64,000 nt of DNA from Lepiota brunneoincarnata (Eukaryota; Basidiomycota; Agaricomycetes; Agaricales; Agaricaceae), in the NCBI GenBank assembly GCA_023014365.1, contig JAEBUN010000045.1:1-64000 (forward strand), given 5' to 3'. The position numbers and the translations under genes are program-made. A model generated the notes under the pieces. It searched no databases, had not been told where the DNA came from, and saw only the letters and a list, made by a program, of their open reading frames with translations. Below, in pieces: positions 245-36,372 of the stretch; the stretch's first letter is position 1; each line of letters begins with the position of its first letter.

Positions 245-2059
245 ACAAATATTACCACGCCTCCAAAGAAATTCTCGGCCCGAGAAACCCCATCACCTCC
301 CCCTCCTCCCAAATCGAGAAGTAGAATCTCAGGATCAGGAACCCAGAACCCGGATCCCAGAAGAAACCCTATCCCCACTCAGACACCATTCCCATTCTAT
401 CCTCCATCTCCATTCGACTCACCCACTCCAAGTACATCAACACGTACAAGAACAAGCTTTGCTGACGAACTAGCAGAACGACAAAGATTACAACACAAAA
501 AAGAATCAAAAGAACACTACGAAGAAGAAGAAAGAAGACGCAAACAAGCCGAAGAATACCGAGCTAAAGTAGACCCATTAAACAACTACAAACTCCAAAG
601 ACTTAAAAACGCCCTCAAACAACCAAAAAGACTTTCCACATCAGAAGAGAACTTACTCACACGCCACAAATACGCCGTAAATCAAGGAAGAACTCCCCCA
701 GCAGACAACGACTCCGACGTCTATATAACAGACAACAACCAATCAGATCCCGATCCACAACCACCCGCATTACCCGCACCAACCGTACCCTTAGCCCTAC
801 CGGCTCCACCTTTGCGACCAACACAACCTCCATCACCACCATCGCCGCCACCACCCGGACAATTACAAATAATGGCCGCCGCAGCTACCCCAAAGGAGTT
901 AGGACTCCTCAAACCCATCGCCTTCGATGGAACTAGAAGACTATTCGAAGATTGGATCTTCCAATGTGAAGTTTACGTGCTCGCTAATGCAACCACTTAC
1001 AACACCGACCTCGCTAGGACCCTATTTGTCCTTTCAATGATGCAATCAGGAGATGCCCGAGCATGGGCTAGACAATACCTCCATGAGAGAAATGCCCAAA
1101 CTCCACAAGGACAACCCATAGTCATGGAGTCATGGGACAACTTCACCGCCCGACTTAGGGCCAACTTCACCCCAGCAGACGAACATGCGTACGCGCATAC
1201 CAAACTCCAGACCCTGCACCAAACAGGCAAACCAATGACTGAATTCAATGCTCAGTTCAAGGAACTCGTCTGTCAATCTGGACTGACAGAAGATCGAACC
1301 CTAATCGATCTATACCACAAAGCGATTGACTGCCGAATCGCCATGAAGATTGACGAATCAGAAAACCCTCCGACAACCATCACCGCTTGGTACACCCAAG
1401 CCAATAAACTCGACGATAATTTCCGCCGAATCAATGCCCTCTACGGCACCCCCAGGACCACGTTCCCTCAGAGGAACCAATATCAACCTAACTGCGGACC
1501 AACCCGTCCAAGCAACAACGTGCCCTACGCACAATTCTACCAAAGGAGCAATGCTCCACGATTCACCCCACGCGACCCACACGCCATGGAAGTAGACCAT
1601 GCTGCAATAGAAGAAGGATTTGAAGATCCTTACCCCGAAATCCCTCAACTGGACTATGCCGAAGAAGAACTTCAAGACTCCTTGGAGATAGATGCCGTTG
1701 TCACCGGACAACAAATTAAAGCTTACCAGAACCAAGAATGCTTCTGATGCGGAGCTAAAGACCACTGGGTTAGCAAATGCCCTCAACCACCACCAGCTAG
1801 ACGCTTCCCAGGAATGCGCACCAATCCCCCTCGCCCTGCGAGAAACCCCAACTGTCCCTTCCTTGGACAACAAAACACTTGTCCCGGATTTCCAAACCAG
1901 AACGCCCAACAATCACTGCAACGCAAGTACTCCCTTGCCGTTGCAGAAGTTGCATCTCAGATGCGCCAAATGGTCGACGACCTCGACCCTGAACTCCAAC
2001 AAGAACTCCACTCTGCGCTAGCCGAAGATCCGGAGATGCATCCCTTCCAGGATTTTTAA
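245..2059 (+). pseudogene. gag: Gag of element A, with TGA inside the zinc knuckle
   Basis: Structural capsid/nucleocapsid protein. The frame is open from 245 (after TAG at 242) to 2,059 except for TGA at 1,745. The first ATG is at 872, but the upstream 600 bases read as a plausible protein: a Pro/Ser-rich stretch, then a charged, coiled-coil-like segment (EELAERQ... EEEERRRKQAEEY-type, about bases 455-575). A spliced or non-ATG start is therefore possible. The capsid region starts near TPKELGLLKPIAFDG and is followed by FEDWIFQCEVY. The CCHC knuckle (C-x2-C-x4-H-x4-C) spans 1,739-1,783 and its third residue is the TGA codon (CF*CGAKDHWVSKC). The protein ends in FQDF just after a GGATTTT heptamer. 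Pol follows in the -1 frame. Confidence 0.8.
2050..2056 (+). promoter_or_regulatory. Putative -1 frameshift slip site GGATTTT (element A)
   Basis: The heptamer is in phase G GAT TTT, immediately before the gag stop TAA at 2,057. Shifting back one base at this point opens the pol frame, which is then uninterrupted up to the protease. GGAUUUU is the known slip site of dianthoviruses. The same heptamer, in the same phase, ends gag in elements B, C, D and E of this window. Function is inferred. Confidence 0.6.
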
Positions 2060-5000
2060 AACGGAACACAGACCGATGCGCCCCTGCTCGTTCCCAGAAG
2101 GACACTATATATTCTCACTCTCAGAAGGACACTTTCTCGATAAATTCTGTACAACTACGACTCTCCCCGAATAAATGCTCTCTCTACCTACCCATCGAGA
2201 TTTGGAGTGAACGGACATCAAAACCCGTGGCCATCACCGCCCTGATAGATTCAGGAGCCCAAGGGAACTTCATCTCCCACAAAGTCGTTGAACGACATGG
2301 TTATCAAACCAAATGGCTGGACCAACCAATTCCACTCAGTAACGTTGACGGAACTGATAATCAACATGGCAAAATCCATGAATACATCAAAATCAGAACC
2401 ATCATTGATGGAAGAGATTGCACGCTAGAAGCGTACGTCACAAACACTGGTGAGAAAGACCTCATCATCGGATTTCCCTGGTTGGAACAATACAATCCCG
2501 ATATCAACTGGAAGACCAAGACATTCTCTTGGAAACCCCAAATCGATCACCAAGACTTTTCCAAACTCCTCAGAACCCTACGACGACCTGTCGAACTCAA
2601 CTCCATCGCCATGGACATAATGGCTGGAAAAACCTCCCAACCCGAAGAAAACCCCGAAGAATACGTCAACCTATCAAATGTTGATCTCGACACTTTCTCC
2701 TTAGAAAGAGAAATGAACCCGATGCTTCTAACCCCATTAGAAGTAAACACCAAAGCAACACATGCCACAACACTCCACAATGAGCAACACAATCTGACAA
2801 AATCGGCAAACCAAAAAGGAAAACAACCGGAATCAAACAAGGAACCACCCGAGATCCCTCGGAGATTCGCCCGATGGGCTAAATTATTCAACAAGAAAGC
2901 CTCTGAACGATTCCCACCATCAAGAACGTTTGATCATGAAATCAAACTAAAACCGACATTCAAAGCGAAATCAATGAAACCCTATCAAGTGGCACCTGCC
3001 GAAGAAAAAGCGCTAAAAGAATTCTTAGATGAAAACCTCCGAAAAGGCTACATCTGCCCCTCAAAATCCCCTATGGCATCACCCTTCTTTTTTGTTGCCA
3101 AGAAAGGAGGAGACCTCCGACCCTGCCAAGACTATCGTTATCTAAACGATCACACCATCAAAAACACCTACCCAATCCCCATGATTTCCTCTATCATGGA
3201 CAAACTCAAAGGAGCTAAGTATTTCACTAAGCTCGACATCCGCCTAGGATACAATAACGTCAGAATCAAAGATGGCAATCAATGGAAAGCAGCGTTCAAG
3301 ACTCCCATGGGTCTTTTCGAACCGACTGTCATGTTTTTCGGGCTTTGCAACAGTCCCGTGACGTTCCAACATATGATGGACACGTTATTCTCCGAAATAA
3401 TGGAGAAAGGAGGAATCATCATTTACATGGATGATATCCTAATCTACGGTAAAACCCAGGAAGAAACCAACTGACTTATGGAAAAAGTACTGCAAATCCT
3501 GCAGGAAAACGACCTCTACCTCAAAACGGAGAAATGCAAGTTCAACAAACAATGACTCGAATACCTAGGCATGATCATCACGCCAGACAAGATCAAAATG
3601 GATCCCGGAAAACTCAAGGGAATAGAAGACTGGCCAGTGCCAAAAACAGTCCGACACGTTCGGAAATTCATCGGATTTTGTAACTTCTACCGGAAGTTCA
3701 TCCGCAGCTACTCCCACCACACCAAACCCCTGAACCAACTCCTTTCCAAATCAAACAAATTCGAATGGAAAGAAGAACAACAGAAAGCATTCGAAATGCT
3801 CAAGAATGAATTCCTAAAGGAACCGGTACTCCTCATGCCTGACTCCACAAAACCCTTCGAAATAGAAGCTGATGCTTCTAAATTCGCATCAGGAGCTGTC
3901 CTGTATCAATACGACATCAATGGAATACGGAAACCCGTATCATTCTATTCAAAGACGTTCGGACCAGCGGAACGCAATTACGATATCTATGACAGGGAAC
4001 TCCTCGCTATTATCTGAGCCCTCGAAGAATGGCGCCACTACCTCCTTGGCAGCCCCCATACTGTCCGTATCAGAACGGACCACCAAAACCTCACATACTG
4101 GCGTAAACCCCAGAAAATCAACCGCCGACAAGCACGATGGGTTCAGACCCTCGCCAACTACAACTTCAAATTAGAACACGTCCCAGGATCAAAGATCCCT
4201 GCACCAGACGCCCTGTCAAGACATCCAGACCACATCCCTGATGAAGACAACGATAACGAAGACATTACCATGCTTCCAAACAACCTCTTTGTCGCCACCG
4301 CTGACATAGAAGATCAAAACTTGATCACAGTACTCCCAGAACAACTCTTTATCACCACCGTCGATATGGAGCTCCAAGAAAGAATCACGGAATCACCAAA
4401 ATACGATGCTAGAACCACCGAAGCATTCAAACTCCTAAAAGAAAACCACCCTAACGCTGCTGATAAAGACTTCGGAACAGTTCCGACCTCAAATGGTCCA
4501 CTCCTCACGTTCCAAGAACGTGTCATTATCCCAGAAGACCTCCAACTCAGACGCGATGTCATCGCAAGATACCATGACCACCCTACACGTGGCCACCCTG
4601 GAGAACAAGAAACATACCACCTTGCCAAGAAAGAAGTGTATTGGCCAGGAATGTCAACGTTCATAAAGAACTACGTCAAAGGCTGTCCAGAGTATCAGCA
4701 ACATAAAATCATACGCAGACCGGATCGCGCACCAACTCAACCGATCCCTCCACCAGCACCTAAACGCCCATTTGCCCAGATCTCATGGGATCTTATCACC
4801 GGTCTACCGCCTAGCACCGGCCATAATGCGATATTGTCCGTGGTGGACCACGGCCTTACGAAGGGGGTAATTTTCATCCCAACCTCAGATCGATCAAACG
4901 CCGATGACATCGGACGACTATTAATAGAAAAAGTCTTCACCAGATTCGGACTACCCGACAAAATCATATCAGATCGAGACCCCAGATTCGCCGCCAACTC

Positions 5001-13900: not shown

Positions 13901-15999
13901 AGAATTCCTATGGGGAGAAAACAAACCAATAATGAAATGGTCAGACATAATAAAGCCAAGAGAAATGGGAGGACTAGGAATCCCAGACATCAAAGCCAGA
14001 AATGAAGCAATCCAAATAACATGGCTAAAGAAGTTCATGGCACCAAAAGACACAAGACCAAGATGGGCATATGTAACAGACCAGATACTAAAGAAAAACC
14101 TAACCAAAAACCCAAAAACTGAAACAAAGAATGCAATAAACTGGGGACTACAAACATGGCATGAATCAGTGGCAGGATGGAGTAAAATCCCAAAATATAT
14201 AAAAGACATGCTAAAAACAGCAAGAAAATACAACATAAGAGTGGACACACCAGTGGTAAGTACAGAAACCAAAAGAAACCTACCAATATGGCACCACATT
14301 GCAATAACAGATAACTACACATGGAACAAAAGGCAGTAAAAGAACTACAAGATAAGAAGAAAATAATGACAGTAGGTAACCTAGAAGACTACATAACAAA
14401 CAACAAAAACAGACAAACAAAAGAAAGCCTCAAAAACTATGGCAAAGAAGATAATGGAGAAAATCCCAGAAAAAATGAACCCATCAAGACTGCAAAGAAA
14501 ATGAAGACAACCTAGATCACACACCAAACAGAATAAGAAGATATGCAATGACAGACTTCAGAGAAGTTCCTGGTACTATTCAACCCAGAAATAAAAGAAA
14601 ACCAACCAATAGAAGATACAATGAGAATATTTAGCAACAAAAAAAGATACAAGACTGAGAGGAATCAAAGATACAACACTACATCTAAAACCAGCAAAAA
14701 GAACCCCACTAAGAAATGACAGAAACACAGAGAAAACAATATACACAGATGGGTCATGCACCAAGAATGGAGATGAGAGAGCATATGGATAGATGAGGAA
14801 AGCAAATGGAATAGAAGCATAAGACTAGTGGAAGGAGAAATGACAAGCCAAAGAGCAGAAATAATCACAATCTCAGAAGCCCTCCTAACACCAGGAAAAG
14901 TCACAATAAAATCAGACTCAGAATCAGCAATAGACAGAATATTAAATAGAGCAAAGAAATGGGAAGATATAAACTACCTAGAAACACAATATGAAAATGA
15001 CTGGAGACTACTAATGAATAGACTAAGAAAGAGACAATGGCCAATAGAATTCAAATGGATAAAAGGACACAGTGGAATAGAAGGAAATGAAAAAGTGGAC
15101 AAACTAGCAGACAAAGCAACAAAAAACCAAATAGGAGAAAATGGAGTAACAGGAGAAAGTGAAAAAAGACTTGACAAAACATTTGAATGGCAAGGGGCAA
15201 GACTCCAAGCACTAGAACAAGACACAGCATACAAACTAATAATTAAAGAAAAAGGAGGCAACCCAGGAACAAGAACAATGAAAAACAACATAGAAAAAGC
15301 AAAAGCATACATAGAAGAAGCCCTCAACATCAGACCCACAGAAAAAAATATACTATGGAAAGGACTAAACAAAAGGAATAATACCACACAAGATCGCAGA
15401 CTTCATATGGAAGATAATACACAACATGAATAAAATGTGGACAATACTTTATGAGAATACCAGGACTAGAAGAAAGGGCAATATGTAAGTGCAGCCCAAT
15501 AGAATCAATAGAACACATACTCTTCAAGTGTAAAAAAGGAACAACAAAGATATGGAAACATGTAGAAGAAACATGGACAAAATTGACAGATGATATACCT
15601 TGGGTAAAACCAGACATAGGTATTCTGATGGGAATAGGAGCTGTCATCATCAGTCAGAAAAATGAAAATGATACAACCACAAGAAACATAACAGAAAAGT
15701 ACAAGGAAATGATAGCAGAAACCATATGGCTAATATGGAAAAAAAGAAATGAAAGGGTAATAAATGAAACAGAACACACAGACAAAGCCCTAATAGACAC
15801 ATGGAACACAATGATGAAAGAAAAACTAGACAGACTGGAAATTAACAGAAAGAGTACCATACGAAAAAAGCAAATAAGCAATAAGAAACTACAAAGTGAA
15901 ATAGGGACAAAAAAACTACCTAACAATAGTCAACAAAAAAGAAAAGAAAGCAATCATCAACATATAATGGTGGACAAAAGAATCACACACAAAGAGTGA
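10909..15999 (+). pseudogene. LINE ORF2: EN-RT-RNase H, many frame breaks
   Basis: The endonuclease starts near 10,911 (TIGSLNIKGQ), passes ATQETKL and reaches LVGDFNFVEDKIDRSP near 11,345. A long linker and RT fingers follow (11,523-12,557). RT motifs are QAGFIPGRSLYNNVRL, then IALDQEKAYDKIAHDWL (to 12,823), and FADDT near 13,085. After the solo LTR at 13,459-13,810 the thumb continues (FLWGENKPIMKW). RNase H shows YTDGS, SQRAEI, SDSESAID and WIKGHSGIEGNEKVDKLADKA (14,730-15,120). The C-terminus has a zinc-type motif CKCSPIESIEHILFKC (about 15,487-15,534). Several stops and frame changes make it non-functional. RNase H plus the C-terminal zinc motif fits Tad/I-type fungal LINEs. Confidence 0.8.
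13459..13810. repeat. Solo LTR (family F, 352 bp), TSD AAAAG
   Basis: Starts TGTTATGCTGG and ends ATGGTAACA. Identical 5-base copies AAAAG lie on both sides (13,454-13,458 and 13,811-13,815). It interrupts the RT/thumb part of LINE ORF2. A diverged copy is at 16,363. No internal region is present, so it arose by LTR-LTR recombination of an unseen element; transcription direction is unknown. Confidence 0.85.
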
Positions 16000-20681: not shown

Positions 20682-21379
20682 TGTTATGATCCGTGCTCCT
20701 TCTGTATCCGAGGATAACTGGAGACGGCCTTCAATCACTCTACAAGGTGTCCGAGACGGTTGGCCTTATAGAGCTTAGTGGATCGCGCTCAATGAGATAA
20801 CGAGGGAAGACGCCAAGTTAAGGCAGAGAGGTAAACGACCGCTGTTAACAAGATTAAAGCTTGAGGCTTTAATCTCTACTTGTACAGGCCTTATATACCT
20901 ATGAGATGCTATATACTCGTTATAGGTTACTTGGCTGTTCTACTGGTCGTGCGCAGTCCTGACCATGATGCACATCCTGGCTGATGGCATCCTAGCGTTA
21001 TTTATATTACAATGAGTCAGTACTCTCGCTACTGCTGTGCGATGTTCCATCGCTTTCCTCTGACTCATAACCTCCTTCTCCCGATTGTATCTCCATGGAG
21101 TCTTCTCCATTCTCGCTCTCCATTCTCTCGGTGCTTCCATCCGTATCGGAGGTTGGATCGGTTGATCCATGGTTATCTTCCTCGTCCTCGGGGTATTCCA
21201 GTATATCCTCCAAGGTTATCTCCATTCCTGCTTCTCTCGCCAGGTCCTGCATGGCGGTGTAGTATTCCCCTTCCTCGTCTTCGTATTCTTGTGCCCGTAG
21301 TTGGTCTGTAGTCTCCTGTACCCATCTTGTAAAGTCGAACAGTAATTCTTGTTCCTCCCAGTTTGGACTGTTCATAACA
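20682..21379 (-). repeat. 3' LTR of element B (698 bp)
   Basis: Ends are TGTTATGA and TCATAACA, an 8-bp perfect inverted repeat. The element-side end follows the purine tract GAAGGGGATAA. The first 373 bases in element orientation (21,379-21,007) encode the C-terminal 124 codons of ORF4 in the U3-like part. Confidence 0.92.
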
Positions 21380-22014: not shown

Positions 22015-22636
22015 TAGAAGCAGATATAGCTTGTACAACACTTGATGGTTGGTTACTCGTATCCACCATGGGAGGGTTGGAAGGTTGGGTGGCGGTCCCG
22101 ATAGGTAGGATAGGGCAGTCCTGACTTCCGCTTCCATTGCTCGGGCTTGGGATCGGACTCTCGAACGGGAATTCGGTGAGAGCGGTTGATAGCATGGCAG
22201 AAATGGTATTGCGGTCCTGTTCCTCTGTTGTGCTAGAAAGAATAGTGGCGCATAGTTCTTTGAATTCTGTTGCTCGGTCGTGGACGAGGCGCTTGTGATA
22301 CAGAAGAGCAGTAAATGTCTTCCAGCAGGTGTCGACCAGGGGTACCATCGCTGGACTGCGTTTAAGATGGGTTCCGGTAATATGAAAGGGAACTTCGTGT
22401 AGAAGGATGGATCGTATCTCGGGTTGGTTGGAGGGAAGGAAGGTATGCCGGATGATATAAGGACTGTTGGTCCTGTCTGGTTGGTTGTCAGCGGTATCGG
22501 TGGCAGGGTTAGGTTGGCTATTTCCTTCGACGCGGTTCGCCAGGGATATGATTCTTTCCCGGATGAGAAGGCGTCCATCGTTGTCTGGCTCTGGGAGGTC
22601 TGGAGTGGTTGCTCGAGTGTTGGGTGGTTGGGTCAT
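21422..22636 (-). CDS. ORF3 of element B: post-pol zinc-knuckle protein (404 aa)
   Basis: Starts at ATG 22,636 inside the end of pol (pol stop at 22,518) and runs 404 codons. The N-terminal half has a helical segment (MVPLVDTCWKTFTALLYHKR ... AMLSTALTEFPFE). At about residues 227-262 lie two knuckles: C-x2-C-x4-H-x4-C (CNCCRRFGHIKAGC) and C-x2-C-x6-H-x4-C (CRYCRKIAPGHYEKHC). The basic, proline-rich tail ends SNITGEPVGLY, shared with element A's ORF3. Element C has an equally long 404-codon frame with several stops. Nucleic-acid binding is inferred; translation would need a separate initiation or reinitiation after pol. Confidence 0.7.
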   Translation of the reverse strand: MTQPPNTRATTPDLPEPDNDGRLLIRERIISLANRVEGNSQPNPATDTADNQPDRTNSPYIIRHTFLPSNQPEIRSILLHEVPFHITGTHLKRSPAMVPLVDTCWKTFTALLYHKRLVHDRATEFKELCATILSSTTEEQDRNTISAMLSTALTEFPFESPIPSPSNGSGSQDCPILPIGTATQPSNPPMVDTSNQPSSVVQAISASNDAPIGTTTAHLSTTRTRCNCCRRFGHIKAGCPRYQCRYCRKIAPGHYEKHCERNPYQHQPASMVPGLYRRPRGIPSRARSLTRETTNNNIRHIVASTEQRPASARPLRTRIQNPPVVIPTTNATTTSVSGSHRLPESILRHTRHHSLQRTHRHRPHPRPAIPRPPSYRSDSPEPDPYFDWDPIAESNITGEPVGLY

Positions 22637-25600
22637 TGGTGGGGTTGTCTAGTTTGTGGGCCCTTTTATATTCTTCAATGACTTCCTTGGCGTTCTCCAG
22701 GTTTGCTTCTGGCTCCCAGGAATCCTCGGTGGGAAGGTATCCTTTCCATCTGACTAGGAATTGATACTTGTTCCGGAATTTTCTGTGGCGCAGTATTGAC
22801 TCGACCTCGTATTCTTCTTCTCCATTTACAAGGTCGGGTGGTGGGGCTGTGTTGTATTCCCCATGTGTGTCGTTCTCTTCTGCAGGCATTAGGAGGCTCG
22901 CGTGAAACTTGTTGTGGATCTTCCATTTGATGGGTAATTTTAGTTCGTAGGTTACAGGTCCGAGTTTTCTTGTTATGGTGAAGGGACCTTCTCGGCGTTG
23001 GGCCAGTTTCTTTGAGGCGTACTGAATTGGGAGGTTGCGGTTGTCGAGCCAAACCTTCTGTCCAACTTTTAGATTGATATCTGGCCGGTTATATCTTGCA
23101 GCCATTTTTAGTCTGGCTTGTTCATGCGCAGCTTGGGCTTCTTGGCGTATTTTGGCGAGGTATTTAAACTTCTCTCCTATTGCTGGAATGTTCGTTGGCT
23201 CCTCGGAGGTCGGAAATCCTTTGGGGCTTGATCCATAGAGGAGTTCAAATGGGGTATGTTGGTGTTCGGCATGTGTTTTCGAGTTGTGGACATATTCCAG
23301 GAGTGGGAGTGCCTTTACCCATTTGTTCGGGTTCGATGAGCAATAGATGCCAAGGTAGAGTTCTATTTCTTGATTGAATCGCTCTGTTTGTCCGTCTGTC
23401 TGGGGGTGGTAGGCGGTAGAGAGTGCTTGTTCGATTCCGAGTTGTTTGTAGAATTCTTTCATGGATTTGGCAGCGAATCTGGGGTCACGATCACTGAGAA
23501 CTTTCTCGGGAAGGCCAAATCTAGAGAATAGCCGTTTGATAAGAATTTCGGCGATCTTGTCCGCGTTGGCTGTTTTCGCAGTAGGTTCTAGAATTATCCC
23601 CTTCGTAAGCTGGTCGACCACGACCAGTATAGAATCATGGGGTCCGTCCGGGGGTAGGTCTGTGATAAGATCCATCGAGATGTTCGAGAATGGACGGGTA
23701 GAACGGGGTCCAGGGATAGGTTGAAGCGGTGGTTTTAAGGGGTGGCGATTGATCTTGTATTGTTGGCAAGCACCACATCCTTTGACGTAGTTTTTGACAA
23801 ATGATCGCATCCCGGGCCAGTAGGCGTATTCCTGGAGTTTTCTAGTTGTTTCTGCGATTCCAGGGTGTCCTGCGGTAGGTGAGTCATGTACTCTTTGCAG
23901 TAAGCGGCGTCTGAGGTGTAGATCTTGTGGTATAAATAGCTTTCCTTGAATGCGTGGGTGTCCTGAGTCGTCTTCTTGGGCGATGTCGGTCTGTTTCTTC
24001 TTCTTCCACAGCTCTTTTATTTCCTTTTTAGTGTTTTCGTCGATAATGTGGATATGTTGTGGCTGTTCTGGGGTGAAGAATTTGTCAGGGAGTGCAACGA
24101 CCTGTTTGTTGTCTCTTGTCTTGGGTTCATGATCGGGTCGTCTGGAAAGGGCATCTGCTGGTCCATTTTTCTTTCCAGGGATATGTCGGATTTCGATGTC
24201 AAATCGTTGCATGTAGGCGATCCATCGGGCTTGTCTTCTGCTGAGGTCTTCAGGTTTTCTCCAGCGGCGAAGGTTGTCGTGATCTGACCATACAATGGTC
24301 TTGTGTGATGATCCTTCTATGTGGTGGCGCCATTCTTTGAGTGCTCGGATAATGGCGAAGAGTTCCTGTTCAGAGCAATGATAGTTGCGTTCGGCTGGTG
24401 AGAATCCTTTCGAGAAGTATGCGACTGGGTGTTTAACTCCATTGTTGTCGCGTTGAAGTAGGACTGCTCCTGATGCAAATAGTGATGCGTCGCATTCGAT
24501 CTCGAAGGGTTTGTCTCGGTCGGGGACCATTAATACCGGTTCGCTTTGGAATTTTCTCTTGAGGGTATCGAAGGCATTCTGGCATTCTTCTGTCCATTCG
24601 AATTTCTTGGTTTTGGACATTAGGGCATTGAGAGGTTTTGCCCATGTGGCGTATTGGTGTATGAATTTTCGGTAGAAGTTGCAAAATCCTATGAATTTTC
24701 GTACGTCGCGTGGGGTAGTTGGTGTTGGCCATTCAGCGATGCCTTTGAGCTTTGCTGGGTCCATCGAAACTGAGTCGGGAGTGATAATGACTCCTAGATA
24801 TTCGAGTCGTTGTCGTTCGAATTCGCATTTCTCGGTTTTGAGGTATAAATCGTTGTCCTTGAGTATCTTGAGTACTTCTCTTGTGAGGCGTCGAAGTTCT
24901 TGTTTTGTTTTTGCGTGAATGAGGATGTCGTCCATGTAAACGATTACTCCTCCATTGTCGATGAGTTTTCGGAATAATGAGTCCATCATGGTTTGGAATG
25001 TTGCTGGGGAGTTACACATTCCAAAGAACATAACCGTGGGTTCGAATAGTCCTCGGGGTGTCCTGAAGGCTCCTTTCCATTCATCTCCTTTGCGTATGCG
25101 GATGTTGTTGTATCCTGCTCGTACGTCGAGTTTGGTAAAGTATTTTGATCCTCGAAGTTTGTCGAGAATGTGAGAGATGAGGGGAAGGTTGTACGCATTT
25201 TTGACGGTATGCTCGTTGAGGTACCTGTAGTCTTGACAGGGGCGTAGCTTTCCGTCTTTCTTTCCTACGAAGAAGAAAGGTGATGCCATTGGCGATTCGG
25301 ATGGTCGAATGTATCCCTTTTGAAGGTTTTCTTCTAGGAACGTGTCTAGTTCCTTTTCTTCATTGAGGGAGAGTCGGTAGGACTTCATGGCAATTGGTTT
25401 GAATGATTCCTTGAGTTCAATTTTGTGATCCCATGGTCGTTGTGGGGGGAATCGTTCGGCTTGTTTCTTGCTAAATACTGGGAGGTATTCGTGGAATTCC
25501 GTGGGTACGACTTTTCTTGGGTCGTCGTTTTTCTTTTCTCCGTGTTGTACGGCAAGGAATTGTGATGCTGAGGCTTTGAAGTTGATTTCTTCGAAGCTTG

Positions 25601-26186
25601 TGGGCTCTAGGGTGGAGATGTGGTTGAGTTGGTCGTTATAGATCCAGTCAGGTTCCATGGATTGGATGAGTTCTCGGAATATAGTGTTGTCCCAACGTTC
25701 GTTTCTCCAGCGTAGTTGTTTGGCATCCCAGTCGATGTCTGGGTTGTGCTCTGCAAGCCAAGGGAATCCAAGGATGAGTCTTGGGCTTCCGAGGGAGACT
25801 ACTTTTGGTTTGATCTCCATATTCTTCCCGTTAACCGTTAGGTTGAGGGTCGTGTAGTGGGTGGCTGTTCCATTTTCGTTAACAGATCCATCGGCATTTC
25901 GTACTTCGATGGGTCGATCGAGGGGTGTCGTTTTGAATGAATGTTGTTTGACCATTCCGGGGTCGATGAAGTTTCCTGCTGCTCCTGAGTCGAGTAGAGC
26001 GAGTAGTTCCACGCTTTCGGGTCCTTCCTTAGTGAACTTGTGTTTTCGGATTCGACAGGGTAGATGTATTACGCGTGCTGACGATTCCTGTAACTTTACA
26101 ACATTAATATCATTTTGTGAATAGGAAAGGGAAGGAGGTCTTTGTGGAGGGCTAGACGTGGTGGCTAGTCTCCTTAGGCAAAATCC
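22518..26186 (-). CDS. pol: Pol of element B (PR-RT-RH-IN-chromodomain), intact
   Basis: Read from the GGATTTT at 26,186-26,180 this is 1,222 codons; the first ATG is at 26,012 (MELLALLDSG). In order: aspartic protease (LLDSGAAGNFI), RT with [18 protein letters not shown] and YMDD (in VIVYMDDILIHAKT), RNase H (FEIECDASLFASGAV, SEQELFAII, WSDHDNLRRW), integrase zinc domain HHCC (HDSPTAGHPG ... CGACQQY), DDE core (MDLITDL, SDRDPRF, TDGQTERFNQE), and a GPY-like region. A canonical chromodomain closes it (EEYEVESILRHRKFRNKYQF, LVRWKGYLPTEDSWEPE). The chromodomain probably directs integration to marked chromatin. No stops or frameshifts seen. Confidence 0.93.
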   Translation of the reverse strand, partial: GFCLRRLATTSSPPQRPPSLSYSQNDINVVKLQESSARVIHLPCRIRKHKFTKEGPESVELLALLDSGAAGNFIDPGMVKQHSFKTTPLDRPIEVRNADGSVNENGTATHYTTLNLTVNGKNMEIKPKVVSLGSPRLILGFPWLAEHNPDIDWDAKQLRWRNERWDNTIFRELIQSMEPDWIYNDQLNHISTLEPTSFEEINFKASASQFLAVQHGEKKNDDPRKVVPTEFHEYLPVFSKKQAERFPPQRPWDHKIELKESFKPIAMKSYRLSLNEEKELDTFLEENLQKGYIRPSESPMASPFFFVGKKDGKLRPCQDYRYLNEHTVKNAYNLPLISHILDKLRGSKYFTKLDVRAGYNNIRIRKGDEWKGAFRTPRGLFEPTVMFFGMCNSPATFQTMMDSLFRKLIDNGGVIVYMDDILIHAKTKQELRRLTREVLKILKDNDLYLKTEKCEFERQRLEYLGVIITPDSVSMDPAKLKGIAEWPTPTTPRDVRKFIGFCNFYRKFIHQYATWAKPLNALMSKTKKFEWTEECQNAFDTLKRKFQSEPVLMVPDRDKPFEIECDASLFASGAVLLQRDNNGVKHPVAYFSKGFSPAERNYHCSEQELFAIIRALKEWRHHIEGSSHKTIVWSDHDNLRRWRKPEDLSRRQARWIAYMQRFDIEIRHIPGKKNGPADALSRRPDHEPKTRDNKQVVALPDKFFTPEQPQHIHIIDENTKKEIKELWKKKKQTDIAQEDDSGHPRIQGKLFIPQDLHLRRRLLQRVHDSPTAGHPGIAETTRKLQEYAYWPGMRSFVKNYVKGCGACQQYKINRHPLKPPLQPIPGPRSTRPFSNISMDLITDLPPDGPHDSILVVVDQLTKGIILEPTAKTANADKIAEILIKRLFSRFGLPEKVLSDRDPRFAAKSMKEFYKQLGIEQALSTAYHPQTDGQTERFNQEIELYLGIYCSSNPNKWVKALPLLEYVHNSKTHAEHQHTPFELLYGSSPKGFPTSEEPTNIPAIGEKFKYLAKIRQEAQAAHEQARLKMAARYNRPDINLKVGQKVWLDNRNLPIQYASKKLAQRREGPFTITRKLGPVTYELKLPIKWKIHNKFHASLLMPAEENDTHGEYNTAPPPDLVNGEEEYEVESILRHRKFRNKYQFLVRWKGYLPTEDSWEPEANLENAKEVIEEYKRAHKLDNPTNDPTTQHSSNHSRPPRARQRWTPSHPGKNHIPGEPRRRK

Positions 26187-27298
26187 TTAACCAGAGGGGC
26201 GTCTGGGTGGTTGGATTCGTTTGCAAAGTGTTCGTAGATGTCCTCGACTTCTTCGTCGGTTGCATCTTCTAGTATGTTGTATAGGGAATTCTTCTTCCTA
26301 TAACTTGCTTGTCTTCTTCTGGATATCGCATTTGACCGGTTTCTGGCATCCAAATTGCGGGGTAATTCGGATCGGCGATATATTGTCTTCTTGGTGGGGC
26401 ATTCGCGGGCAAAGTGTCCAGTCTTGCGGCAGTTGAAGCATCTCCTTTCTTTGAGATCCTTTCTTTGGGCGTCCGTGAGGATTGCATTGAGGGCTTCGCG
26501 GGTGCGTTCTTGTACCAACTGGTGGAGTCTGTCTTCTTCGGTCTCCTCGTCTTCATCAGCTTCCTCGGCGAGTAGATCTGGCTCGTCCTCAAAGTCGAGG
26601 TTGTAGACTGCTTCGGCGAGTTGGTCAATATCCATTGCATTAGGGTCTGTTGCTTGATAGGGCAGTGGGACACGGCGCGTAAAAGCATTTCTTTTCCCTT
26701 TAAATGGGCGAGTGCGCGAAGTCGTTGGAAACGAGGGAGTTCCTCGAGTTTGCATATAGTCGCGTTGAGTTTGTAGTATTTGATATGCTGTTCGAGCTTG
26801 TTTGAACCAGTCGCTGAGTTTGTTTCCTGGATTGAGGCTAATTGTCTTGATTGCGACGGGGCGATCCAGCCCGTTCTTGAAATAGTTGACCGCCGCCACT
26901 CCATCTCCAAGGTCGGCCTGATAGGCGAGTATCTGGAACTGGGATATGTAATCATCGATATATCGTCCATTCTGTTTGAGGTGGCGGATTCTGTCCATTG
27001 CATCGGCGGGGACATTGTTTGGGGCGAAGGATGTATCGAGTCCTTCGAGAAATTTCTTCCATGTCGGAAGGGTCTGGCTTCCATCAAGTTCTTTGTTTGA
27101 TTCCAAGAATGCTCCTCTCCATGTTGCGGCGGGGCCGGTGGACATGTATGAAAGGGCGAATTGTATCTTGGTCTTGTCATCAGAAAAGGCTCCTGGCTTT
27201 GCATCGATGTATAGTTGTACTGCATCCTTCCAGAGGCGGAAGTAGTCGGTCTCTCCATTAAAGGTTGGGGGTGTATTGATTTTTGCGGAGGAGGCCAT
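26174..27298 (-). CDS. gag: Gag of element B (374 aa)
   Basis: Capsid-nucleocapsid protein starting MASSAKINTPPTFNGETDYF. The retrotransposon Gag core reads LWKDAVQLYIDAKPG, FALSYMSTGPAATWRGAF, then WKKFLEGLDTSFAPNN and DDYISQFQILAYQADLGDG. A CCHC knuckle CFNCRKTGHFAREC lies near residues 289-302. It ends APLVKDFA. The frame is open upstream of this ATG (Ser/Pro-rich SPLGSPVHSPPRSSSPVQSE), so a longer N-terminus made by splicing or shifting is possible. Confidence 0.88.
   Translation of the reverse strand: MASSAKINTPPTFNGETDYFRLWKDAVQLYIDAKPGAFSDDKTKIQFALSYMSTGPAATWRGAFLESNKELDGSQTLPTWKKFLEGLDTSFAPNNVPADAMDRIRHLKQNGRYIDDYISQFQILAYQADLGDGVAAVNYFKNGLDRPVAIKTISLNPGNKLSDWFKQARTAYQILQTQRDYMQTRGTPSFPTTSRTRPFKGKRNAFTRRVPLPYQATDPNAMDIDQLAEAVYNLDFEDEPDLLAEEADEDEETEEDRLHQLVQERTREALNAILTDAQRKDLKERRCFNCRKTGHFARECPTKKTIYRRSELPRNLDARNRSNAISRRRQASYRKKNSLYNILEDATDEEVEDIYEHFANESNHPDAPLVKDFA
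26180..26186 (-). promoter_or_regulatory. Putative -1 frameshift slip site GGATTTT (element B)
   Basis: In gag phase it reads G GAT TTT GCC TAA. The pol frame (-1) has a TAA only nine bases upstream of the slip, so the shift must happen in this short window between that TAA and the gag stop. This pins the frameshift to the heptamer. Element C has the same context at 36,360-36,366. Confidence 0.65.
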
Positions 27299-28035
27299 AT
27301 TGTTAATGTCAGAGGTTGTGGATTCCTCGTCGGAAGTGTGAATAGACCCGGTAGTGGGGCTAACTTCGGATGATTCGGATTGTACAGGGGAACTGGATCG
27401 AGGCGGTGAGTGTACCGGTGATCCAAGTGGTGATGTGAGGGGTGAGAATGTTCTTGGGGGTTTCTGTTGCGAAGTGTTGTCGCTAGTTCTTGTACTTGTT
27501 GAGGGTTGAGGACCGGAGGATGGGGTAGATGTTCTATGAATCGGCTCCCCGAGCTTTGAGCGGGTAGAGGTGGCAGTTCTTTCAGGTGGTGGTTGTTTAG
27601 GTAGGGATTGAAGAACTGATGCTGGGGGTGCTGGGTATCCTGGGTCTTCTGTTCGACGTTGAACTCTCTCGGTAGGTTGTGTAGGGTACGGTGCGGAACC
27701 AGAGGGTGAACGAGTGAGGGGTATAGGTTTTGTTTTCTTTTTAGGGTCCGTGGTGGAGGGGGTGTGAAGTCGGGTTCGGAGTCGGTTGTCGACCAGTCAG
27801 AACTGTTGGATTCTTCGTAGTCGGTGGCAAGGGGGTCGTTTCGGTTTGTAGACAGGGTGAAGAGGGAAGAAGTCGAAGGTGAAGGTGAGGGTGAATAAAC
27901 AACGCTTGCGGGTGCGTTATCCCAATCGACGCTTGAAGGTGCGGATGACCTGTATACAACGCTTACGGGTGCGTTATCCCAATCAACACTTAAAGGTGTG
28001 GATGACCTATCAACGCTTTCGGTGCGTCTGACCAA
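26269..28035 (-). CDS. Leader ORF of element B, overlapping gag
   Basis: A 588-codon open frame. Only the part upstream of gag (28,035-27,299, about 245 codons) looks informative: tandem SVDWDNAPxSVVY repeats, then SNSSDWSTTDSEPDFTPPPP, KRKQNLYPSLVHPLVPH, REFNVEQKTQDTQHPQHQFF. Within gag it is a shadow. The same leader is conserved in element C (33,841 onward) apart from the repeats. It could be an N-terminal extension of Gag joined by a frameshift or intron, a separate small protein, or untranslated leader. Confidence 0.35.
   Translation of the reverse strand: MVRRTESVDRSSTPLSVDWDNAPVSVVYRSSAPSSVDWDNAPASVVYSPSPSPSTSSLFTLSTNRNDPLATDYEESNSSDWSTTDSEPDFTPPPPRTLKRKQNLYPSLVHPLVPHRTLHNLPREFNVEQKTQDTQHPQHQFFNPYLNNHHLKELPPLPAQSSGSRFIEHLPHPPVLNPQQVQELATTLRNRNPQEHSHPSHHHLDHRYTHRLDPVPLYNPNHPKLAPLPGLFTLPTRNPQPLTLTIWPPPQKSIHPQPLMERPTTSASGRMQYNYTSMQSQEPFLMTRPRYNSPFHTCPPAPPQHGEEHSWNQTKNLMEARPFRHGRNFSKDSIHPSPQTMSPPMQWTESATSNRMDDISMITYPSSRYSPIRPTLEMEWRRSTISRTGWIAPSQSRQLASIQETNSATGSNKLEQHIKYYKLNATICKLEELPRFQRLRALAHLKGKEMLLRAVSHCPIKQQTLMQWILTNSPKQSTTSTLRTSQIYSPRKLMKTRRPKKTDSTSWYKNAPAKPSMQSSRTPKERISKKGDASTAARLDTLPANAPPRRQYIADPNYPAIWMPETGQMRYPEEDKQVIGRRIPYTTY
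27899..28017 (-). repeat. 60-bp tandem duplication in B's leader
   Basis: Two copies of a unit starting CAACGCTTRCGGGTGCGTTA lie at 27,899 and 27,959, with the start of a third. The unit length keeps the leader frame (SVDWDNAP repeats). Element C lacks it. Confidence 0.7.
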
Positions 28036-28225: not shown

Positions 28226-28923
28226 TGTTATGATCCGTGCTCCTTCTGTATCCGAGGATAACTGGAGACGGCCTTCAATCACTCTACAAGGTGTCCGAGA
28301 TGGTTGGCCTTATAGAGCTTAGTGGATCGCGCTCAATGAGATAACGAGGGAAGACGCCAAGTTAAGGCAGAGAGGTAAACGACCGCTGTTAACAAGATTA
28401 AAGCTTGAGGCTTTAATCTCTACTTGTACAGGCCTTATATACCTATGAGATGCTATATACTCGTTATAGGTTACTTGGCTGTTCTACTGGTCGTGCGCAG
28501 TCCTGACCATGATGCACATCCTGGCTGATGGCATCCTAGCGTTATTTATATTACAATGAGTCAGTACTCTCGCTACTGCTGTGCGATGTTCCATCGCTTT
28601 CCTCTGACTCATAATCTCCTTCTCCCGATTGTATCTCCATGGAGTCTTCTCCATTCTCGCTCTCCATTCTCTCGGTGCTTCCATCCGTATCGGAGGTTGG
28701 ATCGGTTGATCCATGGTTATCTTCCTCGTCCTCGGGGTATTCCAGTATATCCTCCAAGGTTATCTCCATTCCTGCTTCTCTCGCCAGGTCCTGCATGGCG
28801 GTGTAGTATTCCCCTTCCTCGTCTTCGTATTCTTGTGCCCGTAGTTGGTCTGTAGTCTCCTGTACCCATCTTGTAAAGTCGAACAGTAATTCTTGTTCCT
28901 CCCGGTTTGGACTGTTCATAACA
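28226..28923 (-). repeat. 5' LTR of element B (698 bp) with TATA box and hairpin
   Basis: Same ends as the 3' LTR. In element orientation a TATATAAGG box (28,441-28,433) is followed by a perfect 10-bp hairpin with 5-base loop (28,419-28,395), the likely R region. The ORF4 tail is also present here (28,923-28,551) without its upstream part. Confidence 0.9.
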
Positions 28924-29741: not shown

Positions 29742-29841
29742 CTATTCCCAGAGGACTGGCTGTTGACAATGCCTGGACAAGTCATACCACTTCTCCCGTG
29801 CCAACTACACCCTTCCTCTACCTCCCAGTGCCCTTGCCATC

Positions 29842-31104
29842 ATGTCCCAAGAGCAGCAGCAGCAACCACCAACTCAAATGACCATTGAGGAGGCCATAGG
29901 CTCACTTCTCACAGACATGGCAATAGTACAGGCCTGACAAGCTGAAGCTGAATAGAACATGATGGACATGGTGAATGACATATGTGACATGCTCTGAAAC
30001 CTCATGGACTCAATAGGATGACAGCACCGCAACACCCCTCCCTCCATCTCAGCCATACCCCTCAATAGAGTGGAGTATGAGTCCCAAGCCACTGCCCATG
30101 AACCCCCCCCTCCTGCTCCACACCCCTGTCCACCATCACCTCCACTGTACACCTCCACCAGGGCCAAGGTGGCAACCCCACCCAAATTTGATGGAGAATA
30201 TGTCAAGGGTCATGCATTTCTGAATGCATGCCAGCTCTACATCAGGTTCTTGGCAGATCAATTCTGTTCTGATGAACAGAAAATACTGTGGACCCTCTCT
30301 TACATGAAGTTGGGACATGCAGCACAGTGGGCCAACAAGCTGTTCTGCTTGGAAGCTAGCATTGGCGGGTTTCCCTTTATGGACTGGTGGGACTTCACTG
30401 AACAATTCAAGGGTTGGTTTTTCCCTGTCAATGCAGAAGCCAATGCACTAAACATGTTGGAGTCCACATCATACCACCAACAAGAGCAGACTGTTGAAGA
30501 CTACCTAAATACTTTCAAGGTCCTCATCTCCGAGTCTGGATACCAAGACCCCCAAGTTATTGTGGTCAAGTTCCGCTGAGGTCTATGCCCTTCCATCCAG
30601 AATGCCATCACTACCCTCCCAGCAGGCTGTCCCTTGGACTCAGACCCAGAGGCTTAGTACTTGGCAGCACAATGGGTAGACCAAGTCCGAATGGCAAATG
30701 AGGCATTCTGCTCCAGTACTCACTCCCCACTCCTGCCCCCCTCCAAGCCTCCCACAGGATATGTCAGACTCCCCCCTGCTATGCCAACAATCAGACCTTC
30801 AGCCCCACCATGCCCCCCTATCCACTTCTACCCCTCCCCAGGAAATCCAGTCCCTATGGACATTGATGCCTCCAAGCAGAAATCCAGACTCCCCCCACTC
30901 TGCTACTGTTGTAAAAGGCCAGGACATATGAAGGCCAAGTGTCCACTCTGTCATGACATCTGGTACATGGATCTGGAGGAGTGGGATGAACTGATGCAGA
31001 GGTGGAACTCGGAGATGGATGCCCTAGCTGCAACAACTGGAATTCCAAGGGTGGAAGAAGCAGAGTTAGAAGCTGGAGAGGATTTTCAGCAGTGCGATGG
31101 GTGA
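29842..31104 (+). pseudogene. gag: Gag of element D (PEG10-like), several stops
   Basis: Starts MSQEQQQQPPTQMTIEEAIG at 29,842. One frame runs to 31,104 through stops near 29,935, 29,953, 29,995 and 30,019 and at 30,577 and 30,655, mostly TGA. Gag core motifs: VATPPKFDGEYVKGHAFLNA, LWTLSYMKLGHAAQWANK, WWDFTEQFKGWFFP, VEDYLNTFKVLISESGY. After PVPMDID comes a CCHC knuckle CYCCKRPGHMKAKC (about 30,901-30,942). GGATTTT lies eighteen bases before the stop. Confidence 0.82.
31080..31086 (+). promoter_or_regulatory. Putative -1 frameshift slip site GGATTTT (element D)
   Basis: Phase is G GAT TTT CAG. A -1 shift here enters the frame that reads through to the protease without a stop. D's Gag and LTR are unrelated in sequence to B's, so the shared heptamer is notable. 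Confidence 0.6.
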
Positions 31105-32790
31105 CTGGTGTGCCCCCACCACATTCATGTAATAGGTTCTTGGTTTTGTCAGTAGATGAAATAGAACCTGCTTCCAGCTCTGAACCAACTCCTGAAGACA
31201 CACCACCACCCCCAAAAACTTCAGTGCAACATCCCTGCTGGGAATGCCACCTCCCAAAGAGACCAATCATTGCTTATTCTGACTTGGAATCCAAATCCCT
31301 CCAGCTGACAGTGGAACTTGAGACCACTGACTCAGCAGAACACAAAACAGTCAAGGCATTGGTGGATTCCAGTGCAACCGGTTCCTTCATTGACCAAGAC
31401 TTTGTGCATGCTGGTTGCCTCAGTACTCGCCACTTATCCAACCCCATCCTGGTGTTCAATGTAGATAGGACTCCAAATGAGGCTGGACAAATTTCCAAAG
31501 TGGTAGATATGGTCTTGCACTATCAGAACCATGCCAAACGCATGCTGTTAGCAGTAACCAAGTTGGGAAAGCAAGAACTCCTTCTGGGATTTACATGGCT
31601 GAAGCTTCACAACCCAGAAATTGACTGGCAAACTGGAGAAGTCAAGTTATCCTGATGCCCCTCACACTGTTCAGAATGCTGAGACCAGTCATGTGCTGAA
31701 CACCATGCCCAAAAGCTTCAAGCCAATTGCATCTGTGCCTGCTGACTCAGCCCCTTCCCCACCTTAGATGAAGAAGAGGACAAGGATGAGCCAGCCCTCC
31801 CTGCTGAAGAGCCAGAAAAGCCTTTAGAAGATGGGGATTGCATCTTTGCAGTGGGACTCCTCCCTCCGAAGCCCACTCCAAAGGTGATCACCACAGGCTC
31901 TACCACCTCTCAGCACCCAGCAGAAGCCTTCCTCTGGAATTCCCAAATTGATAGCCCCCAGAATTCCAGCTTCTGAGCACATGTTCCCCCATATCTTCAG
32001 GAGTATGCTGCCATCTTTGCCAAGGAGTCCTTCAACATGCTCCCCAATCACCGACCCTGGGACCATGTAATAGAGCTTGTTCCGGGAGCAGACCCCAAGG
32101 GATGCAAGGTCTATCCACTGTCCCCTCTCGAGCAGAAGGAACTTGACAAATTCCTACAGGAAAACTTGTCTTCCGGTCAGGTACACCCATCTAAGTCTCC
32201 TATGGCTTCCCCAGTCTTCTTCATTAAAAAAAAGGACAGCTCACTTTGCCTAGTACAGGATTACTAAGCACTCAATGCCCTCACAGTGAAGAACAAGTAC
32301 CCTCTACCCCCCATCTCCAAGCTGGTTGCACAGCTCTGGGGGGCAAAGTACTTCACCAAACTAGATGTTCAATGGGGCTTTAATAATGTCCAGATTAAGC
32401 CAGGAGACAAGTGGAAGGCAGCATTTCGCACCAATAGGGGCCTCTTCAAACCCCTTGTCATGTTCTTCAGCCTCACTTACAGCCCAGCCACCTTCCAGAC
32501 AATGATGAATGACATCTTTCATGAACTTATCATGGAAGGAGTTGTAGTCATCTACCTGGATGATATCCTCATCTTCACCCAGACCTTGGAGCAGCACAGG
32601 GATGTTGTTAGGCGTGTCATGGAGATCCTTCAACAGCACAAACTCTACCTACAGCTGGAAAAGTGTGAGTTTGAGCACACTCACATTGAGTACCTAGGAC
32701 TTATCATCTTGGAAAACTCCATCAAGATGGACCCAGTCAAAGTTGCAGGAGTCAAGGAGTGGCCAACCCCCAAGGATAAGTTAGGGCTTC

Positions 32791-33174: not shown

Positions 33175-33739
33175 GCTTCAGTCTTTCCTGGGTTTTACAA
33201 ACTTCTACTGTCACTTCATCCAGGATTTCTCCCACATAGCCCAACCCCTCTTTGACCTCACCCAAAACAGCACTACATGGCAGTGGAACTCGGAACAGCA
33301 AGCAGCATTTGATGGCTTGAAAGCAGCTATCACTTTGGCTCTGGTTTTGGCTTCTCCAGATGATAAGGCACCCTTCTGAGTAGAAGCCAATAGTTCAGAT
33401 TTCACTATGGGGGCCATACTCTCTCAACTCTTGGGAGATGATGGAAAGTGGCACCCAGTAGCATTTTACTCTAAAACCTTGTCTCCAGTGGAGTGCAACT
33501 ATGAGTTCCATGATAAGGAGATGCTGGCCATTATCTGGGCACTAGAAGAGTGGAGACACTTCCTTGAAGGAGCATTGGAAAAGTTTGAAGTCTGGATGGA
33601 CCACAAGAACTTAGAGTATTTCATGACTGCTCAGAAGCTAAACTGCTGACAGGTACATTGGTCCCTCTATCTTTCCCAGTTTGACTTCTCTCTTCACCAT
33701 CACCCTGGTCACAGCATGGGAAAGTCCAATGCCTTGTCT

Positions 33740-33798
33740 TGTTATGATCCATGCTCCTTCTGTATCCAAGGATAACTGGAGGAGCACAGATCATAACA
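33740..33798. repeat. Collapsed, inverted 5' LTR remnant of element C
   Basis: About 40 bases match the start of a minus-oriented B-type LTR (TGTTATGATCCATGCTCC...). They are fused directly to the last ~19 bases of a plus-oriented one (GGAGCACAGATCATAACA). The target copy TGTCT is intact on its left. The leader and primer site follow normally at 33,799. Confidence 0.8.
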
Positions 33799-33800
33799 TT

Positions 33801-33812
33801 AGATTAAAGCTT
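33801..33812 (+). promoter_or_regulatory. Putative self-primer binding site of element C
   Basis: AGATTAAAGCTT, two bases after the LTR remnant, identical to B's. Its complement AAGCTTTAATCT is kept in C's 3' LTR near 42,990. Confidence 0.55.
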
Positions 33813-34544
33813 CCTTTGGACAACCTCCATCATACATCCTGTGGTATCGGTACGCCTTGTCACTACCCTTCCACACCAGCAGATGATACGCTTTATCACT
33901 ATCCGAGTGCCAACCATATCTGACGACACACCTTGTCACTGTCCAGTGATACACCCCCATAGAGCAGGCCACCATACCCTCTACACCCTGTCTACAAACC
34001 AAAACAACCCCCTTGCCACCAACTACAAAGAATCTAACAGTTCTGACTGGTCGACAACTGACTCCAAACCCGACTTCACACCCCCTCCACCACGGACCAT
34101 AAAAAGAAAACAAAACCTATACCCCTCACTCATTCACCCTCTGGTTCCGCACCATACCCCACACAACCTACCGAGAGAGTTCAATGTTGAACAGAAGACC
34201 CAGGATACCCAGCACCCCCAGCATCAGTTCTTCAATCCCTACCTAAACAACCACCACTTGAAAGAACTGCCACCTCTACCTGCTCAAAGCTCAGGGAGCC
34301 AATTCATAGAACACCTGCCCTATCCTCCAGTCCTCAACCCTCAACAAGTACAAGACCTCACAACAACACTTTGCAACAGGAACCCCCAAGAACATCTTCA
34401 CCCCTCATATCACCACTTGGATCACCAGTACACTCACTGCCTCGATCCAGTTCCCCTGTACAATCCGAACCATCCGAAGCTAGCCCTACTACCAGGTCTA
34501 CTCACACTTCTGACGAGGACTCCACAACCTCTGACACTAACGAT

Positions 34545-36372
34545 ATGGCCTCCTTCGCAAAGATCAATACACCCCCAACCTTTGATGGAGAGACTGACTA
34601 CTACCACCTCTGGAAGGACGCTGTACAACTATACATTGATGCAAAGCCTGGTGCCTTTTCCGATGACAAGACCAAGATACAATTCGCCCTTTCATACATG
34701 TCCACTGGCCCTGCTGCAACATGGAGAGGAGCATTCTTGGAATCAAACAAGGAACTTGATGGAAGCCAGACCCTTCCAACATGGAAGAAATTCCTGGAAG
34801 GACTTGACACATCCTTTGCCCCAAATAATGTCCCCACAGACGCAATGGACAGAATCTGCCACCTCAAACAGAATGGATGATATATCAATGATTACATATC
34901 CCAGTTCCAGATACTTGCCTATCAGGCTGACCTTGGAGATGGAGTGGCAGCAGTCAACTATTTCAAGAATGGGCTGGATCGCCCCGTCGCAATCAAAACA
35001 ATTAGCCTCAATCCGGGAAACAAACTCAGCGACTGGTTCAAACAAGCTCAAACAGCATATCAAATATTACAAACTCAACACGACTATATGCAAACTTGAG
35101 GAGCTCCCTCGTTTCCAACGACTTCGCACCCTCGCTCATTTAAAGGGAAAAGAAATGCTTTTACGCACTGTGTCCCACTCCCCTATCAAGCAACAGACCC
35201 TAACACAATGGATATTGACCAACTCGCCAAAGCAGTCTACAACCTTGACTTTGAGGAAGAGCCAGATCTACTCACCAAGGAAGCTGATGAAGATGAGGAG
35301 ACCAAAGAAGACAGACTCCACCAGTTGGTACAGGAGTGCACCCGCAAAGCCCTCAACACAATCCTCACAGATGCCCAGAGAAGGGATCTCAAGGAAAAGA
35401 GATGCTTCAACTGCTGCAAGACTGGACACTTCACCCGCAAATGCCCCACCAAGAGAACCATATATCGCTGATCCAAATTACCCCACAATTTGGATGCCAG
35501 AAACTGTTATGATCCGTGCTCCTTCTGTATCCGAGGATAACTGGAGACGGCCTTCAATCACTCTACAAGGTGTCCGAGACGGTTGGCCTTATAGAGCTTA
35601 GTGGATCGCGCTCAATGAGATAACGAGGGAAGACGCCAAGTTAAGGCAGAGAGGTAAACGACCGCTGTTAACAAGATTAAAGCTTGAGGCTTTAATCTCT
35701 ACTTGTACAGGCCTTATATACCTATGAGATGCTATATACTCGTTATAGGTTACTTGGCTGTTCTACTGGTCGTGCGCAGTCCTGTCCATGATGCACATCC
35801 TGGCTGATGGCATCCTAGCGTTATTTATATTATAATGAGTCAGTACTCTCGCTACTGCTGTGCGATGTTCCATCGCTTTCCTCTGACTCATAATCTCCTT
35901 CTCCCGATTGTATCTCCATGGAGTCTTCTCCATTCTCGCTCTCCATTCTCTCGGTGCTTCCATCCGTATCGGAGGTTGGATCGGTTGATCCATGGTTATC
36001 TTCCTCGTCCTCGGGGTATTCCAATATATCCTCCAAGGTTATCTCCATTCCTGCTTCTCTCGCCAGGTCCTGCATGGCGGTGTAGTATTCCCCTTCCTCG
36101 TCTTCGTATTCTTGTGCCCGTAGCTGGTCTGTAGTCTCCTGTACCCATCTTGTAAAGTCGAACAGTAATTCTTGTTCCTCCCGGTCTGGACTGTTCATAA
36201 CAGAAACCGGTCAAATGCGATATCCAGAAGGAGACAAGCAAGCTATAGGAAGAAGAATTCCCTATACAACATACTAGAAGATGCAACCGACGAAGAAGTC
36301 GAGGACATTTACAAACACTTTGCAAATGAATCCACCCACCCAGATGCCCCTCTGGTTAAGGATTTTGCCTAA
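34545..36372 (+). pseudogene. gag: Gag of element C, interrupted by a solo LTR
   Basis: Starts MASFAKINTPPTFDGETDYY. TGA codons at 34,878, 35,097 and 35,469 replace arginine of B. The knuckle reads CFNCCKTGHFTRKC. A solo LTR lies at 35,505-36,202, after which the frame resumes RNRSNAISRRRQ and ends APLVKDFA. The leader frame of B is also kept upstream (from about 33,841) without the 60-bp repeats. Confidence 0.85.
35505..36202 (-). repeat. Solo B-type LTR (698 bp), TSD GAAAC
   Basis: Same ends and length as B's LTRs, with only a few differences by eye. GAAAC occurs at 35,500-35,504 and 36,203-36,207. It carries the ORF4 tail on its minus strand. It sits in C's gag and is much less decayed than C. 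Confidence 0.93.

Follow-up and report, generated by a model that had tools for sequence, protein, structure and literature searches.

In this study, we show at the level of sequence that gag of the Ty3/gypsy-type long terminal repeat (LTR) retrotransposons in a stretch of the Lepiota brunneoincarnata genome carries, at or shortly before its stop codon, the heptamer GGATTTT, always in the same phase, within the overlap with pol and conserved among copies. The window, meaning the whole stretch analysed, comprises positions 1-64000 of contig 42 (GenBank JAEBUN010000045.1), and its five elements, A to E, were compared with a genome of 55.6 Mb in 95 contigs. Programmed -1 ribosomal frameshifting from gag to pol is the best explanation for these junctions, and we put its probability at roughly 0.85. 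Gag would be made from gag, and a Gag-Pol fusion would arise at a minority rate by a -1 shift: with GAU in the P site and UUU in the A site, both tRNAs would re-pair one base further back, on GGA and UUU, after which translation would go on in pol. As stimulator, folding predicts a pseudoknot in F1 and T, two groups of copies found in the genome comparison, and an ordinary stem-loop in A and B, with no clear form in D. If pea enation mosaic virus (PEMV) is a guide, the nearby gag stop may aid the shift. The ancestor shared by A, B and D/T probably already had this signal.

The heptamer at the end of gag

GGATTTT is present on the + strand at 2050, 36360 and 31080, and on the - strand at 26186-26180 and 17534-17528. 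At all five sites the gag frame reads G GAT TTT at or shortly before the gag stop, just as the original prediction from this DNA had it. The gag products end in FQDF (A and E), KDFA (B and C) and EDFQQCDG (D), the distance from heptamer to stop being 0, 3 and 15 nucleotides (nt), respectively. Frame reading bears out the further claim that pol of A, B, C and D lies in the -1 frame and is open at the heptamer. In A, the slip heptamer (2050-2056, +) is directly followed by the gag stop TAA (2057-2059), and the pol frame (1993-3474, +), encoding protease and part of the reverse transcriptase (RT), is open from 57 nt before the heptamer; an earlier in-frame TGA lies in gag at 1745-1747. In B, the gag frame with capsid and zinc knuckle (26174-27796, -) ends with a TAA (26174-26176) 3 nt after the heptamer (26180-26186, -), and a pol frame of 1222 amino acids, from protease to chromodomain (22518-26186, -), opens at the first base of the heptamer, directly 5' of which stands a pol-frame TAA. 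The overlap between these two stops has room for only two in-phase 7-mers, leaving in B only a short space for a shift, as had been stated. C is a decayed copy of the B family in which the gag stop again follows the heptamer (36360-36366, +) by 3 nt and pol meets a stop roughly 95 codons downstream. In the fragmentary element D, the heptamer (31080-31086, +) precedes the gag stop TGA (31102-31104) by 15 nt within a pol frame (30990-31655, +) that holds a protease.

By sequence comparison the window contains three lineages and not five: C belongs to the same family as B, and E is a relative of the A type. The number of GGATTTT in the window by itself is mildly high (22 on both strands against 13.75 expected, with at least 22 in 4 of 100 shuffles), and the weight rests on place and phase. 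With a chance of about 1.1e-4 per position and 20, 2 and 36 in-phase overlap positions in A, B and D, respectively, hand multiplication gives a probability near 2e-9 for the three junction matches, which stays far below 1e-6 after allowing for tens of possible slip heptamers. Moreover, nine overlaps representing A, B, D, T and F1, together with that of the D copy L075, were scanned for 7-mers of a set of slip types, and the junction heptamer was the only one found. Neither GGAUUUU nor the GGAAAAA described below is a strict X XXY YYZ heptamer.

Copies across the genome and the family F1

The heptamer is common at the junctions of other copies. All 20 further A copies have GGATTTT and an immediate stop (13 TAA, 7 TGA); these were taken from 150 copies listed, and because each of them aligns to that end of the query at which the heptamer lies, the sample is biased towards intact junctions. 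An A-type junction was also found at five of ten loci (L119, L120, L123, L125 and L126) drawn from the protease-family list plus one near-by list entry (L119-L128), the other five having no recognisable gag/pol junction. All ten further copies of B keep the heptamer and are nearly identical to each other. For D, the heptamer was present in 20 of 20 copies out of 150 rows listed, with TGA at +15 in 19 and TAG at +3 in one, and in 15 of the 20 the pol frame has a stop 3 nt upstream of it. Twenty further D/T copies, mostly more divergent, retain it in 15 cases, the others having GAATTTT, GGACTTT, AGATTTT, GGATCTT or, in one case, no alignable 5' side. Ten more T sites gave GGATTTT in seven, AGATTTT in one and no motif match in two, and seven T loci among the RT matches gave GGATTTT in five, in one case not in phase with pol, and AGATTTT in two.

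The B family is informative in other respects. B and C are two copies in opposite orientation whose arms are 89-93% alike. B lies between repeats at 20682-20981 and 28226-28525, each at least 300 nt long and reported as 100% alike, which are probably its LTRs. Judged by these sequences, B is a young insertion, because near-identical repeats flank it and a third copy of the repeat (35505-35804) interrupts C. A separate match list indicates that B is also abundant in the genome. With B gag as query, four proteins were found outside this genome, one 100% identical and three 33-40% identical, the latter ending in KDFA, KDFV and KDFA directly before the stop; known to us as protein sequences only, these ends fit AAG GAT TTT. 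No homologue of A gag was found at E 0.001, either with an A/F1/T gag alignment or with a region of A gag as query, and no viral contig matching B, A or T pol was confirmed.

The original prediction had taken E for a gag-only element that keeps the heptamer without pol, a reading that has to be given up. The E heptamer (17528-17534, -) is the gag end of a truncated copy, in which an earlier gag stop is also present. The match of E to A-type copies (76-83%) ends at the stop; with its nearest relatives it goes on for about 20 nt, and there a different repeat begins that is also found elsewhere; a relative of E, L141, continues into pol with the same heptamer. E being an A-type copy that breaks off at another repeat, its heptamer is mere inheritance.

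The same signal is not universal in the genome. In the family F1, gag ends in G GAA AAA UAG, with the stop directly after the heptamer and pol in the -1 frame, and GGATTTT was not found at the junction. Among 39 F1 loci the heptamer is GGAAAAA in 33, AGAAAAA in four, and GAAAAAA and AGAATAA in one each. These loci come from 40 of 150 listed RT matches and eight more, three of which overlap, giving 45 places and 48 loci, of which 39 are F1 (36 of the 45 places), seven T and two B; the list holds the best 150 of 1371 candidates, and these counts are not genome shares. F1 is thus a candidate for shifting likewise, at GGAAAAA with UAG directly after. The original prediction that all gypsy elements here end gag on GGATTTT holds for the junctions of the window and fails genome-wide, and GGAUUUU cannot be regarded as their common slip site. 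Its central proposal, -1 frameshifting at GGAUUUU, finds good support in the comparisons: in the overlaps scanned this is the sole slip-type heptamer, it is kept in copies and in diverged lineages, pol mostly lacks a Met ahead of the protease motif, and a stem is predicted 6 nt past the heptamer in several families. The universality and the interpretation of E were not borne out.

Pfam matches to RT, integrase and a C-terminal chromodomain in A and B, and to integrase and chromodomain in C, support the term chromovirus for these three; the fragmentary D pol matches the protease part. RT identities are 68% between A and B, 59% between A and D, 71% between B and T1, and 49-60% between F1 and the others. 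An unrooted tree of six rows (protease and part of RT) separates A and B from T, D and F1 at 97 and joins T and D at 100, F1 having the longest branch. If F1 is the outgroup, GGATTTT was probably ancestral to A, B and D/T. It had been argued that A and D are not close and the signal consequently old or favoured; with F1 as outgroup, one ancestral signal is enough.

Several observations stand apart from these junctions. Most differences in the older copies among L049-L108 are C-to-T and G-to-A changes at CG sites (by eye, uncounted), and many of them create TGA stops in pol, a pattern that looks like methylation decay or repeat-induced point mutation. A further small protease family with eight matches, including L124 (C10:210500-211200) and L122 (C6:622100-622800), had no gag/pol junction in the stretches read. 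Outside the elements, open frames at 60837-61724 (-) and 14777-15433 (+) match Pfam Sortilin_C and RNase_H.

Predicted structures downstream of the slip site

A stem-loop is predicted 6 nt past the heptamer in A (2063-2094, +; dG, the folding free energy, -5.5; loop holding UGCGCCCC at 2077-2084), in B (26146-26173, -; dG -6.3; directly after the gag stop), in C (36373-36400, +; dG -9.4, shuffle-uncontrolled) and in D (31093-31131, +; dG -12.0; holding UGUGCCCC at 31109-31116). When the best stem start was sought over spacers 0 to 14 in 15 sequences, spacer 6 was best or tied in eight (A of the window, L050, L056, B, C, D of the window, L075 and F1). For any one sequence spacer 6 is best in 12-21 of 300 shuffles, and the chance that A, B and D agree on it is near 1e-4, a figure to be read with the fact that spacer 6 was picked post hoc, after folding several families at once. 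A stem as good or better at spacer 6 was reached, per 300 shuffles, in 23 for A (A1) and 9 for A2, 5 for B, 8 for D and 23 for its copy L075, 16, 27 and 221 for T1, T2 and T3, and 1 for F1.

In F1, an H-type pseudoknot is possible, with stems of 11 and 6 bp and loops of 6, 1 and 11, which none of 400 shuffles matched. Across 34 F1 loci no more than one of the 11 pairs of the first stem is lost, and all 6 pairs of the second are intact in 33; an example lies in L012 around 2433-2511 (the family falls within L001-L048). In the frameshift pseudoknot of the coronavirus infectious bronchitis virus the first stem has 11 bp and the second 6 bp. The predicted F1 stems equal these sizes, although slip site, loops and type of element differ. 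A pseudoknot is likewise predicted in T_L022 (stems 9 and 6 bp; loops 7, 0 and 11; matched by 0 of 400 shuffles), and the corresponding numbers are 1 for T_L047, 1 for T_L098 and 19 for T_L104. By the rules used none was found in A or B, and that of D is not above chance (181 of 400 shuffles). An Rfam scan of the window returned nothing at the gathering threshold.

In A, D and T the stretches past the heptamer also share a short motif, TGYGCCCC, which was chosen after being seen. It occurs three times in the window (2.8 expected), two of these lying 20 and 22 nt past the heptamers of A and D, and it is found 22-23 nt past the heptamer in A2, A3 and T. The starts of the motif are 27 nt (A) and 29 nt (D) from the start of the heptamer, and the pol codon phase therefore differs, so that by this reading of the frames it cannot be kept as the same peptide in the two elements. 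An 8-mer common to A2/A3 and D/T was reached in 0-10 of 1000 shuffles, while A1 and D/T have only five exact letters in common (148-218 of 1000). UGYGCCCC is absent from the B and F1 stretches, and its exact partner GGGGCRCA has one + strand site in the window, at 58665, outside A and D.

Alternative explanations and known recoding signals

Some of the results weigh against frameshifting with a conserved stimulator. Spacer 6 is not best in seven of the 15 sequences (L125, L084, L091 and four T copies), T_L022 having a strong stem at spacer 6 and a better one at spacer 1. Fold z-scores are weak (+1.56 to -1.92), covariation in T is no better than in shuffles, and one pair of the T first stem is broken in 8 of 16 sequences; in L134 all eight first-stem pairs are complete (by eye). 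For the 3' structure that the original prediction had named as a check, folding predicts a stem with a 6-nt spacer in A, B, C, F1 and part of the D copies, and pseudoknots in F1 and T; T gives no covariation support. To the same side belongs a candidate intron in T, with a GTNNGT donor and a TAG acceptor 59 nt apart (+17 to +76).

Were a short intron to take out the gag stop and so bring gag and pol into one frame, the heptamer would be incidental. Within about 160 nt of the heptamer and at lengths of about 40-160 nt, each family has GT-AG pairs that would restore the frame and are shared by at least 90% of aligned copies (six in A, five in D, five in T, two in B and four in F1), but a consensus-like donor and acceptor do not occur together in any conserved pair of A, B, D or F1. 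Splicing would leave unexplained why one heptamer recurs in one phase and why a pol-frame stop adjoins it in B and most D copies, and we regard it as very improbable. Slightly less probable still is that the heptamer is kept by the needs of overlapping proteins or by kinship and that pol is made otherwise, for example by re-initiation. If gag needs D-F and pol needs G-F, most of the seven bases are determined, and A, B and D/T may share one ancestor. However, neither protein constrains the final T of the heptamer, which is nevertheless T in A, B, D and T, and F1, which looks unrelated, carries a different slip-type heptamer in this position. Re-initiation is unlikely because Met is missing ahead of the protease motif in seven of eight pol reads; the eighth, T_L047, has one.

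It is also conceivable, though we consider it rather unlikely, that frameshifting at GGAUUUU is correct and was acquired separately by A, B and D/T because it is favoured. F1, with a different slip site and a similar stop and spacer layout, suggests that such layouts can form around other heptamers. Against separate acquisition, UGYGCCCC is common to A and D/T, and A, B and D/T group together if F1 is the outgroup, an argument that is weak either way with an unrooted tree of six rows. On a further reading, which we take to be less likely than not, a single recoding module (GGAUUUU, 6-nt spacer, stem and UGYGCCCC) may predate A and D/T and be conserved as RNA and not as protein, because the pol codon phase of UGYGCCCC differs between them; F1 might then have kept the layout with GGAAAAA-UAG, a second little-known slip site, so that two slip codes would exist in one architecture.

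If frameshifting is the right explanation, LTR retrotransposons here use an umbravirus-like slip signal with a built-in stop codon, and two groups of families combine two heptamers with a similar layout. They would offer a natural comparison series for the contribution of stop and spacer, which the PEMV work leaves open, and would allow gag and pol in such elements to be annotated as one recoded gene. The review PMC5009743, in the part available, describes -1 pol with classical heptamers in many LTR elements, mentions the PEMV stop near the stem, and reports both +1 and -1 shifts in fungal LTR elements; that part does not name GGAUUUU or GGAAAAA for LTR elements, and no such site was found in the available parts of PMC5389150 and PMC3835772. 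At the level of titles and abstract openings, with most subscription papers outside the search, there was no report of GGAUUUU in a fungal LTR element. Two papers on mammalian genes derived from sushi-ichi elements each contain the letters ggatttt once. In fungi, the same GGAUUUU has been proposed as the gag-pol slip site of Xanthophyllomyces dendrorhous totiviruses, with a predicted pseudoknot (available part of PMC3561658); these differ in being double-stranded RNA viruses, and there too the signal is only predicted.

The closest likeness is to plant viruses. According to the available parts of the sources, GGAUUUU is a -1 frameshift signal of umbraviruses and dianthoviruses (PMC4737148; PMC5009743), and PEMV has G GAU UUU, a 5-nt spacer and a stop near the stem base, the change of which to a sense codon gives 72% less frameshifting (PMC4737148). 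The elements described here resemble these viruses, as far as those parts go, in G GAU UUU, in a pre-shift stop 0 (A) or 3 nt (B) after it, and in a stem close behind the slip site, at 5 nt in PEMV and, by prediction, at 6 nt in A, B and F1 as well as in some D copies. They differ in that the junction is that of gag and pol in a retroelement and not one leading to a viral polymerase, in the D/T stop at +15, and in that the A loop motif has no exact long-distance partner on its coding strand in the window. The F1 layout, like those of A and B, matches what is available on PEMV in having a stop 0-3 nt after the slip site and a stem predicted near by.
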